From a virus, in IMG/VR virus record IMGVR_UViG_3300027782_000260, positions 1 to 30,421 of that record: 30,421 nt of DNA; one strand, given 5' to 3'. Shown here in pieces: positions 13,663 through 19,487 of the stretch. How positions within the stretch are numbered: the stretch's first letter is position 1; each line of letters starts with the position of its first letter. The translations under genes were made by a program, and so were the position numbers. The notes below the pieces were generated by a model. The model was not told where the DNA came from. It made no database searches and saw nothing but the letters and a program-made list of their open reading frames with translations.

Positions 13663-13836
13663 ATGTATCTCACAGTCACAGACGCTGCCAAGAGGCTAAA
13701 GGTCAGCAGACAATGGACTACAACGCTGATAAATCAAGGAAAAATAGCCACAACTATCCTCGCCGGTCGGCGCGTTGTCATTGCTGACAAGGCATTCCAA
13801 GCGATGGAAAAAGGGCGCCGGAAGGCGGGGAAATGA
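13663..13836 (+). CDS. Excisionase-type helix-turn-helix protein (57 aa)
   Basis: A 57-residue DNA-binding protein: YLTVTDAAKRLKVSRQWTT is a MerR/excisionase-type HTH, followed by LINQGKIATTILAGRRVVIA, the usual wing, and a basic tail. The ATG at 13663 has AAGGGGG six bases ahead; a longer upstream reading lacks a ribosome site. It is the first gene of the rightward operon beside the divergent promoter region, so autoregulation or control of the leftward promoter is plausible. With no integrase in the window, excision is not a necessary role. The stop overlaps the next start (ATGA). Confidence 0.75.
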   Translation: MYLTVTDAAKRLKVSRQWTTTLINQGKIATTILAGRRVVIADKAFQAMEKGRRKAGK

Positions 13837-15350
13837 ATTATTTGTCAGTTTGTAGTGGGATTGAGGCGGCTACAGTAGGCTGGCATTCTTTAGGCTGGCA
13901 ACCTGTTGCTTTTTCTGAGATTGAAAAATTCCCATGTTCTGCATTGGCGCACCATTATCCTGATGTGCCTAACTGGGGCGATATGACTAAATTTAAGGAG
14001 TGGCCAGATGCAAATGTCAATGTTCTCGTTGGAGGAACCCCCTGCCAATCTTTCAGTGTCGCAGGACTCCGAAAAGGATTGGCAGACCCGCGTGGCAACC
14101 TCATGCTTACGTATCTTGCCATTGCTGCAAAGTATAGCCCCGAGTGGTTGGTTTGGGAAAACGTGCCCGGCGTCTTGTCCAGTAACGGAGGACGAGATTT
14201 TGCCAGCCTCCTTCGAGGGATGGGGCAACTCGGGTATGGGTTCGCCTACCGAATTCTTGACGCTCAATACTTTGGAGTTCCCCAGCGGCGCAGACGCGTG
14301 TTCGTTGTCGGATGTGCTGGAGGTTGGCAACGTGCCGCAGCGGTTCTTTTTGAGCGCCACAGCTTGCAAAGGCATATTGCGCCGCGCAGAGAAGCGGGGC
14401 AAAGAGTTGCCAAAACAGTTACAGCAAGCCTTAAAACAGGTGGCGCAGACTACGATACAAAAGAATTGATCGGCGGGATTGATTACGAGAACAACGGTCA
14501 TGGCCCTACTGGCCCTACTGGCCCTTTGCTGAAAGGTTCGCCGACCGGTGGCGGCAGACCGTTACCTGCTATCGCTTATGGCGTAGCTGGGGCATTGGAT
14601 ACGCAATGCGGTGGAGAAAAACTTACCCATCAATCGGTTGTCAACGGGCACGTTTTGCCGGTTATGGGAACGCTAACGACGCGCACATTTACGGCACTTG
14701 GCGCGCGTGATATCAAGGAAGGCGCACTCGTTCCGATGATTTCCCACTCCTTGCGTGGCGAAGGCTTCGACGCTAGCGAGGACGGGACGGGGCGCGGGAC
14801 GCCGTTGGTGCCGATCCAGAACGCGCTGCGCGGCAAGTCGCAGAACGGGTTAGGCATTGGCGAAGGTGGGGAGCCGATGTACACGCTGGACAAGGCGAGT
14901 CAGCACGCGGTTGCCTTTGCCCATCAAGCAGGCGGCGCGCAGACCACGTTAGGCTACGACCAGGAGCGCGGAACCGCGCCTACGCTGCCGAAATGTCAGA
15001 CGCTGGCAGTGGCGATTTTTAAAAGCGGCCAAAGCGCGGCCGCGCGTAGCATCGGATACAGCGAACACTTGGCGCCAACACTGTCATCGTCTGACGAAGA
15101 TAATCGCATACCTAAGCTTTTGCAAGCCATGCAAGTACGCCGCCTGACCCCGCGAGAGTGCGAGAGGCTACAGGGCTTCCCCGACGATTACACGCTCGTC
15201 CAGTACCGCAACAAGCCAGCCGCTGATGGGCCGCGCTACAAGGCACTCGGCAACAGCATGGCAGTGCCAGTGATGGCATGGATCGGCAAAAGAATTCAAC
15301 AAGTGGAGGAAATAACATGCACCACAAAGCAAAAATACCATTCAGCATAG
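13833..15350 (+). CDS. C5-cytosine DNA methyltransferase (Dcm family)
   Basis: A 505-residue methyltransferase. Visible motifs: I (LSVCSGIEAATVGW, residues 4-17), IV with catalytic Cys (GGTPCQSFS, Pro70-Cys71), VI (ENV, 109-111), VIII (QRRRRVFVVG, 151-160), IX (RRLTPRECERLQGFP) and X (GNSMAVPV). About 250 residues between VIII and IX form an unusually long target-recognition region containing GPTGPTGP and recurring segments such as SHSLRG, QNALRG and APTL. It methylates cytosine in phage DNA, probably against host restriction; the target is unknown. Its frame also encloses a second gene at 14008-14469. Confidence 0.92.
   Translation: MNYLSVCSGIEAATVGWHSLGWQPVAFSEIEKFPCSALAHHYPDVPNWGDMTKFKEWPDANVNVLVGGTPCQSFSVAGLRKGLADPRGNLMLTYLAIAAKYSPEWLVWENVPGVLSSNGGRDFASLLRGMGQLGYGFAYRILDAQYFGVPQRRRRVFVVGCAGGWQRAAAVLFERHSLQRHIAPRREAGQRVAKTVTASLKTGGADYDTKELIGGIDYENNGHGPTGPTGPLLKGSPTGGGRPLPAIAYGVAGALDTQCGGEKLTHQSVVNGHVLPVMGTLTTRTFTALGARDIKEGALVPMISHSLRGEGFDASEDGTGRGTPLVPIQNALRGKSQNGLGIGEGGEPMYTLDKASQHAVAFAHQAGGAQTTLGYDQERGTAPTLPKCQTLAVAIFKSGQSAAARSIGYSEHLAPTLSSSDEDNRIPKLLQAMQVRRLTPRECERLQGFPDDYTLVQYRNKPAADGPRYKALGNSMAVPVMAWIGKRIQQVEEITCTTKQKYHSA
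14008..14469 (+). CDS. Overprinted gene inside the methyltransferase (153 aa)
   Basis: A 153-codon frame shifted by one base and wholly inside the methyltransferase gene, covering its codons 59-212. It has its own ribosome site: AAGGAG at 13995-14000, seven bases before the ATG. The product looks protein-like rather than random: MQMSMFSLEEPPANLSVS, SGWFGKTCPASCP, GWGNSGMGSPTEF, ADACSLSDVLEVGNVPQRFF and LSATACKGILRRAEKRGKEL. I recall similar sequences (SDVLE..VPQRYFLS..AC.GILRRAEKRGK) as hypothetical phage proteins accompanying such methyltransferases. The function is unknown; a partner or regulator of the enzyme is conceivable. The two proteins share DNA that also codes for motifs IV, VI and VIII. 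Confidence 0.7.
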   Translation: MQMSMFSLEEPPANLSVSQDSEKDWQTRVATSCLRILPLLQSIAPSGWFGKTCPASCPVTEDEILPASFEGWGNSGMGSPTEFLTLNTLEFPSGADACSLSDVLEVGNVPQRFFLSATACKGILRRAEKRGKELPKQLQQALKQVAQTTIQKN

Positions 15351-15675: not shown

Positions 15676-17646
15676 ATGGTTGAGAATGATTCTGTAGTCG
15701 AGCTGCATCCAAAGGTCTTGCTGGATGCTGCACTGAAATACGCGCTGCGGGGATTCCGTGTGCTGCCACTGAACAGCATCCGGCAAGGCGTCTGCACTTG
15801 CGGCGATTCCGATTGTCGCTCGCCTGGCAAACATCCGCTGACCGCACACGGGGCGACCGAGGCCAGCAGCGACGAAATGACGATCCGCGGCTGGTGGTCT
15901 AAGTGGCCGACTGCCAATATCGGGCTGGCGATGGGTGACGCGGGATGCGTGGCGCTAGATGTGGACACGCGCAATAACGGCCACCTGAGTTGGGAGGCGC
16001 TGATACAGGCTAACGGGGCCCTACCAGAGACTCCTACGCAGCGCAGCGGTAACGGGTGGCACTACCTAGTCAGGATCGACACTGCGGCCGTCAAACGCTG
16101 CCGTGGCAAGCTGGCGCAGGGGATTGACGTCAAGGCCAACGGCTATATCGTGGCCGAGCCATCCATCCATCATTCTGGGCGCCGGTATGCTTGGGATGAC
16201 GGGCTGGATCTGCTGGCCGGATTCACCCCGGCACGCGCCCCTGTCTGGCTCGAACGCATGTTGATGGAACCGGCAGCGGAAGCGGGTGCGGCGCCCAGCT
16301 CGCCAAACTTAGGCAATTACACACTGCCGGCACAACTCGCAGAGGCCGCAGACGCGCTGACAGTGCTGGATGCCGAGGATTATCACCAGTGGATCGAGGC
16401 AGGCATGGCGCTACACGCGACCGGCTTGGGCGATCTGGCATATCAAGTCTGGGTGGACTGGTCCGGCCGGTCGGGGAAGTTTGACCACAAGGTGCAGCGG
16501 GCAAAATGGTTGTCGTTTTCAACCAATCGGGCCGCAGGCGTGACGATCAAAACCTTATTTTCTCGCGCCCAGTCGGCAGGATGGATAAACCCCATGTCAG
16601 GCACCAGCTCTGCACCGAAGGCATCCGCACCAGTTTCCAAGCTGATTGCAGAAACCGGAGAAACCTTCGTTGCCGGGTTCAAACCGCCGGAATACACCAT
16701 TGAGGGCGTGCTGCTGCGCGGCTATCTCTACGGTATCACAGGAAAGAGCAACGCCGGTAAAACCGCCATTGCCGTCAGCCTGGCGGCGTGCGTCGGCGCC
16801 GGTAAGTCATTTGGCCGGCACCAGTCGGTTGTCGGCCGCGTGCTCTATCTAGCCGGCGAGAATCCAGAGGATATTCGGTTACGCATTAAAGCCTACTGCG
16901 TTTCCATGTTTATGCCGGACGCCTTTAATAATGTCACCTTTATCAGCCGGTCATTCAGCATTACGCAGCATTTTGAGGAATTAATGGAATTGTCGGAATT
17001 AGTCGGCGGCTTTGATTTGGTGCTGGTGGACGGCAAAACGTCATTTTTTAGCGGTGACGAGGAAAACGACAACACTCAGGCTTACGCACAGGCGCTTGAG
17101 CTGCGCTCATTAACGCGGTTGGTAGGTCTGCCTTCCGTGGCGGTGCTGTGCCACCCAAACCGCGCCGTAGAGGGCGCAGAGGGGCTATTGCCGCGTGGTG
17201 GATCGGCATTTTTGAATGAGCTGGACGGCAACTTGACCGCCTGGAACTCCGGTGGCGTGGTCAGCCTGTCTCAGAACAAAATCCGCGGCGCTGACTTTGA
17301 GCCGGTCAAAATCAAACTCGATGTATTCGTTTTTCCAGACATAAAGACTAATTTCGGCACGCCGATCACCTCGGTTATTGCCAAACCGCTAAACATGAAC
17401 GAATCCGAATTGCTCGAAGAACAGGCCGAATCGGAAGAAAACCGCTTGCTGGCGCTGGTTAATTCCAATTCCAAAGCAACGCTGCGGGAATGGGCTACGC
17501 TGCTCGGCTGGAACGATCGCAACGGTCAGCCGATGGTGTCAAAGGTCAGCCGCACACTCAACCAATTAAAGGCCGATAAAATGGTCAGAAAGGTGCGGAA
17601 GAATTGGAAAATAACGACCGCTGGAAAGGCCGAAATTGGTGGTTAA
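15676..17646 (+). CDS. Bifunctional primase-polymerase / RepA-type helicase
   Basis: A 656-residue replication protein. Residues about 15-185 form an archaeo-eukaryotic-type prim-pol domain: ALDVD (Asp95, Asp97), GWHY (His129) and GIDVK (Asp151) are the expected catalytic residues. A Cys-bearing insert (CTCGDSDC, 40-47) may bind zinc. Residues about 225-305 resemble a primase C-terminal domain (YHQWIEAGMALH). Residues about 340-545 form a RecA-type ATPase with Walker A GKSNAGKT (356-363), Walker B LVLVDG (448-453) and CHPN (492-495). The end (about 580-656) is winged-helix-like. It makes primers and unwinds DNA. GGGGTG precedes the ATG, and the repeat-rich probable origin follows the stop. 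Confidence 0.88.
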   Translation: MVENDSVVELHPKVLLDAALKYALRGFRVLPLNSIRQGVCTCGDSDCRSPGKHPLTAHGATEASSDEMTIRGWWSKWPTANIGLAMGDAGCVALDVDTRNNGHLSWEALIQANGALPETPTQRSGNGWHYLVRIDTAAVKRCRGKLAQGIDVKANGYIVAEPSIHHSGRRYAWDDGLDLLAGFTPARAPVWLERMLMEPAAEAGAAPSSPNLGNYTLPAQLAEAADALTVLDAEDYHQWIEAGMALHATGLGDLAYQVWVDWSGRSGKFDHKVQRAKWLSFSTNRAAGVTIKTLFSRAQSAGWINPMSGTSSAPKASAPVSKLIAETGETFVAGFKPPEYTIEGVLLRGYLYGITGKSNAGKTAIAVSLAACVGAGKSFGRHQSVVGRVLYLAGENPEDIRLRIKAYCVSMFMPDAFNNVTFISRSFSITQHFEELMELSELVGGFDLVLVDGKTSFFSGDEENDNTQAYAQALELRSLTRLVGLPSVAVLCHPNRAVEGAEGLLPRGGSAFLNELDGNLTAWNSGGVVSLSQNKIRGADFEPVKIKLDVFVFPDIKTNFGTPITSVIAKPLNMNESELLEEQAESEENRLLALVNSNSKATLREWATLLGWNDRNGQPMVSKVSRTLNQLKADKMVRKVRKNWKITTAGKAEIGG

Positions 17647-17670
17647 AAAGTGTGTCAAAAAGTGTATTTC

Positions 17671-17890
17671 TTGTTCCGCGTTTGTTCCACGTTATAAAGT
17701 GATTTAAAAAATGGAACAGAACAGGGTGTTTTGTTCCAAAATGGAAATTCAGTAAAATGTAATAGTTTCAAATGTTTAGTGCTGTTTTGTTCCATAAAAA
17801 AGTGCGGAACAAACCATATGGGTTTAGAACAAAAAAGGATGGATTTGTTCCATCCTTTGTTTCCTATAGGTGGAACAAGAAGTGGAACAA
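17671..17890. repeat. TTGTTCC/GGAACAA repeat cluster, probable iteron origin
   Basis: Eight exact copies of one 7-base motif in 220 bases: TTGTTCC starting at 17671, 17682, 17731, 17787 and 17845, and GGAACAA at 17806, 17872 and 17884. Near-copies lie at 17713 (GGAACAG) and 17826 (AGAACAA). The wider consensus is about TTTGTTCCAY. The 280-base block 17647-17926 has no gene, is clearly AT-rich and follows the primase-helicase gene. Spacing is irregular and both orientations occur, so it resembles binding sites for an initiator or regulator, most simply a replication origin. An 8-bp inverted pair is at 17786-17813. Confidence 0.7.
17834..17858 (+). terminator. Hairpin within the repeat block (terminator or origin hairpin)
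   Basis: AAAGGATGG (17834-17842), loop ATTTGTT, CCATCCTTT (17850-17858) make a perfect 9-bp stem followed by GTTTCC. The loop and 3' arm overlap one TTGTTCC copy. It could end transcription of the replication operon, but the downstream T-run is short, so an origin hairpin is equally possible. Confidence 0.5.
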
Positions 17891-17926
17891 GAGCAGTTTT
17901 TATTGATTAAAAAATAGGCAAATGAC

Positions 17927-18235
17927 ATGACACCAACCCAACGCAGCCTAGCAGCTCTCCGCGAACTCGGTTACCTGGTCGAAGTGGTCGAGAAATGGAA
18001 CAGTTTTACCCGAACGCGGAAAGATTTGTGGGGCTGGGCCGATCTGCTGGCCATCCGGCGCGGCGAGGTGCTCGCGGTCCAGGTCACCAGTGAGGGCGTG
18101 GCCAATCGGGTTAAAAAGGTTATGGACTCGGAAACCATCGGTCGGGTGCGCGAGGCTGGGGTGCGGGTTGAAATTCACGGCTGGCGTAAGAACGTAAAAG
18201 GGCGCTACGTGCAGCGAGTGGTCGACCTCTCTTGA
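17927..18235 (+). CDS. PD-(D/E)XK resolvase/VRR-NUC-like protein (102 aa)
   Basis: A 102-residue protein: MTPTQRSLAALRELGYLVEV, then TRKDLWGWADLLAIRRGEVL and AVQVTSEG, followed by IGRVREAGVRVEIHGWRK. This matches a common phage family with the small PD-(D/E)XK resolvase/VRR-NUC core: Asp39 and the AVQ strand stand at the D and (E/Q)xK positions, with Gln52 in place of the acidic residue. It could process branched DNA during replication or packaging. It lies directly after the repeat block and just before the late promoter. No strong ribosome site precedes its ATG. Confidence 0.7.
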   Translation: MTPTQRSLAALRELGYLVEVVEKWNSFTRTRKDLWGWADLLAIRRGEVLAVQVTSEGVANRVKKVMDSETIGRVREAGVRVEIHGWRKNVKGRYVQRVVDLS

Positions 18236-18260
18236 CAGCACATTGTTTAGGCACTAATCT
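18232..18260 (+). promoter_or_regulatory. Candidate sigma70 promoter for the late operon
   Basis: TTGACA (18232-18237), 17 bases, then TAATCT (18255-18260). The -35 is perfect with optimal spacing; the -10 is weak (three of six), which would suit a promoter needing help. It overlaps the end of the resolvase-like gene and lies about 100 bases before the first late gene. Confidence 0.6.
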
Positions 18261-18302
18261 GCTGTTGCGTTGATCTCCTCCGTGATACGCACTCCCCCGC
18301 GA

Positions 18303-18996: not shown

Positions 18997-19233
18997 ATGG
19001 CTGAATCTGACATTATAGAAAATTGTAGCTTTTGTCGATTTTTTAGAAATCATCAAATAATGGGAAACTGCAGACGTTTCCCGCTGATGCAGAACAAGCA
19101 CGAAACCGATTGGTGCGGTGAATTTGTCCGTATTGCCGGTTTGGAACCGATCCACACCAGTGTGCCGACAACCATCACACTCATGCCGCCCCCACAGCGC
19201 AAACGTGGCCGGCCGGTGAAGGTGGCAGCATGA
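18997..19233 (+). CDS. Cys-rich small protein (78 aa)
   Basis: A 78-residue protein: MAESDIIENCSFCRFFRNHQ, then MGNCRRFP and WCGEF, giving four Cys (about 10, 13, 24 and 42) suited to a metal or Fe-S site. The tail is Pro-rich and then basic (PPPQRKRGRPVKVAA), resembling an AT-hook core (RGRP). GGGAG lies eight bases before the ATG; a TTG 15 bases upstream is an alternative. It is coupled to the co-chaperonin gene (ATGA). Confidence 0.65.
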   Translation: MAESDIIENCSFCRFFRNHQIMGNCRRFPLMQNKHETDWCGEFVRIAGLEPIHTSVPTTITLMPPPQRKRGRPVKVAA

Positions 19234-19487
19234 TCCGGCCGATGGGTAACAAGGTCGTTGTCAAGCCACTGGTGCGGCAGCTGTCAAGCGTGTTGATCGT
19301 TAAAAACACGGAACCCTTCAACGAGGGAACTGTGGTGGCGACAGGACCAAAAGCAACCGAAATATCAGTCGGTGATTTTATTAAATATGGTAACGGGGAT
19401 TATCTTAAGTGGCCAACGCATAATATTGACGGTCAGGATTATCAGATCATCTCCGAAATGGACATTTGTGCAGTCGTAACTCAATAA
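19230..19487 (+). CDS. GroES-like co-chaperonin
   Basis: An 85-residue Cpn10 fold: MIRPMGNKVVVKPLVRQLSS is the first strand region, VLIVKNTEPFNEGTVVATGP covers the mobile-loop position and the conserved G.VVA.GP, then VGDFIKYG, DGQDYQIISEMDIC and AVV. This is the GroES order at near-normal length. Phage co-chaperonins (for example T4 gp31) cap host GroEL to fold virion proteins. It lies upstream of the terminase, portal and coat genes, so helping coat folding is a natural inference. The start overlaps the preceding gene by four bases. Confidence 0.8.
   Translation: MIRPMGNKVVVKPLVRQLSSVLIVKNTEPFNEGTVVATGPKATEISVGDFIKYGNGDYLKWPTHNIDGQDYQIISEMDICAVVTQ

Follow-up and report, generated by a model that had tools for sequence, protein, structure and literature searches.

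Replication initiators that carry a C-terminal winged helix (wH) and have iterons 3' of their gene are already known from satellites. For SaPI Rep and SCCmec Cch2, binding of these downstream iterons resides in the C-terminal domain (PMC7581432), and plasmids carrying the PICI rep-ori replicate (PMC6092414). The SaPI/PICI Rep-ori (Ubeda 2007 via PMC7581432; Fillol-Salom 2018, PMC6092414) has multiple short iterons directly 3' of an initiator helicase gene, as does the locus described below; two iteron sets around an AT-rich region and a primase that is fused or adjacent are further shared features. However, the SaPIs and PICIs are satellite islands with other helicases (DUF927, D5/Primase_Cterm), whereas the present loci are found on tailed-phage contigs and in cultured phages, encode RepA/AAA_25 RecA-type helicases, and combine several unrelated modules with one Prim-Pol. 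Rather than representing a satellite island, the window (the whole stretch of DNA analyzed here, 30,421 nt, which is an entire IMG/VR virus record) encodes a terminase, a portal, and a major head protein of its own.

Several other systems share parts of this arrangement. The alpha protein of phage P4 is described (PMC4234260) as a primase-helicase with a C-terminal wH that binds origin repeats, followed by unwinding and priming; the likeness is one of description, and the primase is of the TOPRIM type in P4 but an AEP Prim-Pol here. RSF1010 RepA, RepB', and RepC with oriV accomplish the same three steps, iteron binding, unwinding, and priming (PMC4234260), with three separate proteins, whereas a single polypeptide with its own wH is present here. 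ORF904 of pRN1 and the related prim-pol replicons have an AEP primase, a helicase, a C-terminal wH, and an origin 3' of the gene (PMC4234260), but pRN1 has an SF3 helicase and a large conserved stem-loop (about 100 nt) and lacks the iterons that are present here. In Vibrio cholerae PLE, the DNA-binding domain of the initiator RepA co-varies with the iterons, both being exchanged together as one module (PMC8263062, PMC7145576); the cognate pairing was proven experimentally, and the origin-directed nuclease Odn provides a precedent for selection on iterons (PMC8263062). However, the PLE initiator is a RepA_N protein with no predicted helicase or primase activity, its iterons are about 30 bp long, and two specificity groups have been described, compared with many here. 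The PrimQH AEPs combine a primase, PriCT, diverse ATPases including the RepA type, and a C-terminal WH, which was proposed, from domain order, as a possible origin reader; the cited part of that source gives this domain-order prediction and describes no origins or iterons (PMC5862659), whereas arrays were identified here.

The initiator and the downstream repeat cluster

The initiator gene (15676–17646, plus strand) encodes 656 aa with a Prim-Pol domain (residues 19–190; PF09250, E 7e-38), a PriCT_2 domain (226–297; PF08707, 1e-14), and an AAA_25/RepA-type helicase (331–495; PF13481, 6e-21). The best PDB sequence match of the helicase domain is RepA of RSF1010 (1g8y, E 6e-6 with the A6 profile), and its fold is RecA/Rad51/DnaB-like (1nlf, TM-score 0.67 by target). 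An AlphaFold2 model of residues 311–656, based on 45 sequences, had a pLDDT of 92.6 and ended in a predicted winged helix (residues 574–655; 17395–17640, plus strand), with helices at 264–287, 293–300, and 311–323 and wing strands at 327–330 and 333–336 (numbered from residue 311). The predicted recognition helix comprises residues 621–633 (17536–17574, plus strand) and contains the candidate specificity residues S622 (17539–17541), S625 (17548–17550), and R626 (17551–17553), of which 622 and 625 emerged from the column ranking described below.

Directly 3' of this gene, eight exact copies of TTGTTCC/GGAACAA, out of 13 in the 30,421-base contig, are clustered within 220 bp (17671–17890), at 17671, 17682, 17731, 17787, and 17845 (plus strand) and at 17806, 17872, and 17884 (minus strand). 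A one-mismatch search with TGGAACAA added two near-copies, so that altogether ten iterons are located 25–244 bp 3' of the stop codon. They form two sets. The first set consists of CGGAACAA (17671–17678, minus strand), TGGAACAA (17682–17689, minus), the near-copy TGGAACAG (17712–17719, plus), and TGGAACAA (17731–17738, minus). The second consists of TGGAACAA (17787–17794, minus), CGGAACAA (17805–17812, plus), the near-copy TAGAACAA (17825–17832, plus), and three further copies of TGGAACAA (17845–17852, minus; 17871–17878, plus; 17883–17890, plus). The four and six iterons are separated by an iteron-free, AT-rich gap of 48 bp (17739–17786; 24% GC), which is a candidate melting region.

In 20,000 mono-nucleotide shuffles of 17647–17926, the motif occurred 0.029 times on average and three times at most. 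Its density is 28.6/kb inside this stretch versus 0.17/kb (five copies) across the remaining contig. Hexamer repeats counted per 250-bp segment reached nine copies at the array and at most six anywhere else, which makes the array the densest repeat cluster of the 30.4-kb virus contig. The GC content of 17647–17926 is 33%, versus about 52% contig-wide, and the sole ORF is a 59-aa frame with a TTG start. Thus, what a sequence-only reading of this DNA had described, i.e., eight exact copies and two near-copies in 220 gene-free, AT-rich bases directly after the primase-helicase gene, with a chance expectation far below one copy, was confirmed, and the genome-wide count proposed as a check agreed with it. 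That reading had also noted that the mixed orientation and irregular spacing differ from plasmid iterons, and indeed the uniform orientation and regular spacing of plasmid iteron origins are not found here; its suggestion of a new origin type, however, did not stand, because the organization is that of SaPI/PICI (PMC6092414, PMC7581432). The GC skew of the contig, proposed as an origin marker, did not change direction at the array.

When ten distinct close relatives were compared, 4 of the 80 iteron columns (5%) were variable versus 30 of the 200 other columns (15%), and the AT-rich gap holds much of this variation. The GC content of the largest inter-iteron gap was below that of the locus in 32 of 39 relatives, but not always below that of the rest of the array. 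The strand of the array folds better than shuffled sequences (z −6.4), as expected from inverted iterons. A hairpin with a 10-bp stem, AAAGGATGGATTTGTTCCATCCTTT (17834–17858), includes the eighth iteron and is near-invariant among the ten close relatives; it could be terminator-like or could be a single-strand initiation site for the primase. Hairpins within or beside the array are common among relatives, and those in L142, L154, L162, and L171 are G-rich.

Based on the comparison with relatives and on analogy, the cluster is very probably the replication origin of the phage, read by the C-terminal wH of the upstream initiator. From SaPI Rep and SCCmec Cch2 (PMC7581432), the PICI rep-ori (PMC6092414), P4 alpha and RSF1010 (PMC4234260), and PLE (PMC8263062), we infer how such an origin would be active. 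The wH would bind the TGGAACAA iterons as double-stranded DNA. The central GA would be recognized by S622 and S625 of the recognition helix, and the first G probably by R626. Assembly of the RepA-type hexameric helicase by several bound initiators would follow, with melting of the AT-rich gap that separates both iteron sets and unwinding of the DNA, after which the Prim-Pol domain would prime.

Arrays in related loci and the operator alternative

A whole-protein scan yielded 59 loci, wider scans yielded more than 60 loci of the family of the window (A family), and the comparison overall encompassed more than 100 related loci, most of them metagenomic contigs. In an unbiased scan with ties counted, the stretch 3' of the initiator was the top repeat region of the locus in 67 of 82 loci. 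In L154, L155, and L108, the array is located 0.35–1.8 kb further 3', and in the vicinity of the L133, L140, and L152 initiators, it is weak or absent. Nearly all A-family loci, some of them on contigs attributed to genomes of Mesorhizobium, Ancylobacter, Propionivibrio, and Methylotenera, have a significant array within 350 bp after the stop codon. Two cultured phages are also represented, Idiomarinaceae phage 1N2-2 with 11 copies of GGTACA and Roseobacter phage CRP-821 with 10 copies of TTATAC in the corresponding gap, and the environmental genome MW202879 has a weaker array of 5 copies. As a negative control, the primase-helicases of eight other phage records were analyzed (Nocardia, Gordonia, Mycobacterium, one Manatee Spring record, Pseudoalteromonas, Vibrio, Serratia, and Klebsiella), and no comparable array was found. 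When the loci were searched for a non-iteron element common to the origins, only scattered CCTATAGG/CTTTAGGG and G-run hairpins emerged. The related phages, which the sequence-only reading had proposed to inspect, thus have arrays of their own 3' of the initiator in most loci, and its iteron-type origin is strongly supported by these comparisons, with three corrections.

One of the alternatives is that the array is a transcriptional operator, through which the wH controls downstream genes or its own level, while replication starts elsewhere. Although a DNA-bound winged helix is capable of regulation, the array follows the initiator gene instead of preceding it, the DNA immediately before the initiator start is free of iterons, and 17300–18300 yielded no sigma-70-like promoter; therefore, the operator, also considered in the sequence-only reading, is the weaker option. 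The array does lie directly 5' of a flanking gene for a 102-aa protein (17927–18235, plus strand), which is outside the origin, but the downstream gene varies between loci while the array stays. A terminator-like hairpin at the array would also suit an operator, but 8–14 sites over 200–300 bp exceed the usual operator need, and those relatives of this layout that have been examined experimentally proved to be origins (PMC6092414). Altogether, we regard an operator as improbable.

Exchange of cassettes behind one Prim-Pol

At least four helicase-wH types share one Prim-Pol (residues 1–310), and PF13481 (AAA_25) is present in all four of these types. Immediately 3' of the gene, every type carries a distinct array: GGAACAA in A (the window), TTGGCGCA in B (L018–L037), AACCGCAT or CTACCGC in C and GGAACAGCA in D (C/D comprising L038, L041, L044, and others), and CCGGACA in E (L045–L053). 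Prim-Pol domains that are 94–100% identical occur with unrelated helicase-wH modules. Compared with the window, the identity of L018 (B) and L038 (C) is 100% in residues 1–200 and 94–96% in residues 201–310, but falls to 11–34% thereafter, and their arrays differ (TTGGCGCA and AACCGCAT, respectively). On the DNA level, the blastn similarity to the window ends at 16614–16616 and returns at 17903–17927, in B and C types alike, so that one breakpoint is in the linker between primase and helicase and the other shortly after the array. These alignments show that helicase, wH, and array are exchanged together as one cassette (16615–17926, plus strand). Judged from contig names, A and B types co-occur in sample 3300009151. 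A search of genome contigs with the C/D module found nothing, and the AlphaFold2 model of this module was poor (pLDDT 47; 58–78 for the last ~100 residues, with a winged-helix-like order) and was excluded from the conclusions.

L058 is about 54% identical to the window, yet has the same kind of C-terminus and a GGAACAA array. In L017 and L021–L023, a different N-terminal half precedes the same A helicase, wH, and array, and it is joined at the same linker (about 16624 of the window). This half has no Pfam match and is probably another AEP-type primase; from these junctions, the primase half is exchangeable, too. Since this Prim-Pol is also found with other arrays, and this helicase, wH, and array also with another primase half, the array belongs to the helicase-wH module, and not to the prim-pol, to which the sequence-only reading had tied it.

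Within the module, the comparisons indicate that the array is matched to the winged helix and not to the helicase. L079 has a C-type helicase and ~80 C-terminal residues of the D type, and its iterons are of the D type. The helicases of L038, L041, and L044 are 75–97% alike (residues 311–500) and their C-terminal domains 49–59% alike; the layout of their arrays is kept, and the iteron differs.

Recognition helix residues and iteron classes

In the A family, the iterons mostly fit X-NN-AC, X usually being G, and nearly every member has a private iteron of the form G-NN-AC-R. The NN classes found include GA, AT, CT, TT, AA, CA, and GG, with the class assigned by hand in six or seven cases and TT and TA indistinguishable. 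Plain mutual information between alignment columns and iteron class is confounded by relatedness; partial correlation, prediction with relatives left out, and a comparison of independent pairs took its place. In a ranking of 311 columns controlled for helicase identity, NN was best predicted by residue 622, followed by residue 625 (partial r 0.45 and 0.28, respectively; 0 of 500 shuffles, which do not preserve the tree), and residue 626 ranked second for the base preceding NN. When trained solely on sequences with less than 50% helicase identity, residues 622/625 predicted NN correctly in 13 of 19 cases, versus 2 of 19 by the nearest relative. Among non-overlapping close pairs, residue 622 was the best column separating different-NN from same-NN pairs. 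S622 together with H, F, or N goes with GA, A, G, P, or S at 622 together with Q625 goes with AT, and W or Y at 622 together with Q625 usually goes with CT. In L135 and L159, which have lost R626, the first base is T instead of G. The code is imperfect: the combination (S,S) is found with GA in the window and with CA in L173, (R,S) has two outcomes, and L130 versus L168 as well as L157 are among the exceptions. Taken together, the comparison of loci shows a private matching of each array to its winged helix, and the strong co-variation points to probable recognition of the iterons by the C-terminal domain.

Concerted changes of the array

As the cassette is exchanged as a single block, the co-variation might simply reflect linkage of neighbors, with the repeats being read by another protein, e.g., a small HTH protein. 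The L104/L105 pair argues against this. Their helicases are 100% identical and their recognition helices differ (KSKVHR versus KQRVHR, i.e., SK to QR); all eight aligned, in-register iterons are changed from GGAACG to GTTACG, while the intervening DNA is still alignable, and one of the iterons spans the start codon of the next gene (ATGGAACGG versus ATGTTACGG). Similarly, L162 and L171 (92% helicase identity; RMEQI versus RMDQI) differ by CAG to CGG in most, though not all, iterons. The origin alignments of L156/L165 and L129/L163 are too diverged to reveal in-register changes. The concerted changes in the L104/L105 and L162/L171 pairs thus suggest selection on the match of wH and array rather than mere linkage. 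In addition, the association is sharpest at the recognition-helix residues and holds across distant relatives. The small HTH_17 protein, a binder proposed in the sequence-only reading, is near-identical across phages with different iterons, and the 102-aa protein, irrespective of iteron type, retains 87–99% identity across most relatives (69% in L038); therefore, neither is the specificity reader. Cassette linkage as the sole explanation is rejected in view of L104/L105 and the constancy of the neighbors, and a reader other than the wH is highly unlikely. Least probable of all is a mode like that of NrS-1, whose PrimPol depends on an 8-nt motif of the template that occurs twice in the middle of the genome (PMC7102993, PMC8718748), with the primase domain reading the repeats as single-stranded template starts in a priming zone; it does not fit, because the primase half stays nearly unchanged while the repeats change completely, and the same repeats follow a different N-terminal half in L017 and L021–L023.

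Two iteron types are present within one array in L171, L149, and L151 (e.g., CGG with CAG; GCT with GAT), and these mixed arrays have possibly been caught during a change of specificity.

Implications for tailed-phage origins

The lack of a common sequence has, to our knowledge, kept the origins of most tailed phages from being identified. The region directly 3' of a gene for a RepA-type primase-helicase with a C-terminal wH can be inspected instead, and this rule yields candidate origins for dozens of uncultured phages as well as for the two cultured phages CRP-821 and 1N2-2. As far as the open-access papers searched are concerned, the presence of such a system in tailed phages with RepA-type helicases, the cassette exchange behind one Prim-Pol, and the residue-level specificity pattern with its many iteron types are new; the modular exchange of initiator and origin, known from satellites, is thereby extended to tailed phages. 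With relatives that have the same set-up and different matched repeats, one family shows probable origin and reader changing together. It represents a natural experiment, in which near-identical helicases have few winged-helix changes and about ten binding-site copies are changed throughout. The residue-to-base predictions are suited to short oligonucleotides with the iteron variants TGGAACAA, TGATACAG, TGTTACGG, and GCTACG.

More tentatively, and as a possibility that we would not yet favor, the replicon specificities may be open-ended, with a Prim-Pol and swappable helicase-wH-origin cassettes, at least ten iteron types within one cassette family, and diversification by selection. The iteron type would be set largely by two or three recognition-helix residues, the arrays would change in concert, and the mixed arrays could be intermediates. 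Non-interference between co-infecting phages, or escape from origin-targeting parasites or nucleases, might be the driver.

Neighboring genes and other repeats

In a DNA-level search of cultured phages, the matches were confined to the methyltransferase. The C5-cytosine methyltransferase gene (13833–15350 of the window) has an 80% identical DNA stretch in the two cultured Roseobacter phages CRP-821/822, of the same genome size (30.3 kb). The 102-aa protein has no Pfam or PHROG match at 1e-3; by eye, it resembles a VRR-NUC/resolvase-type nuclease, and in MW202879, a protein annotated as vrR-nuc is encoded close to the initiator. A phage-encoded GroES/Cpn10-like protein is located at 19230–19487 of the window. 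About 1.0–1.3 kb 3' of the initiator, L140 contains a coding repeat of about 16 copies of GGGGACGCTGCG-like units, which is unrelated to the origin.
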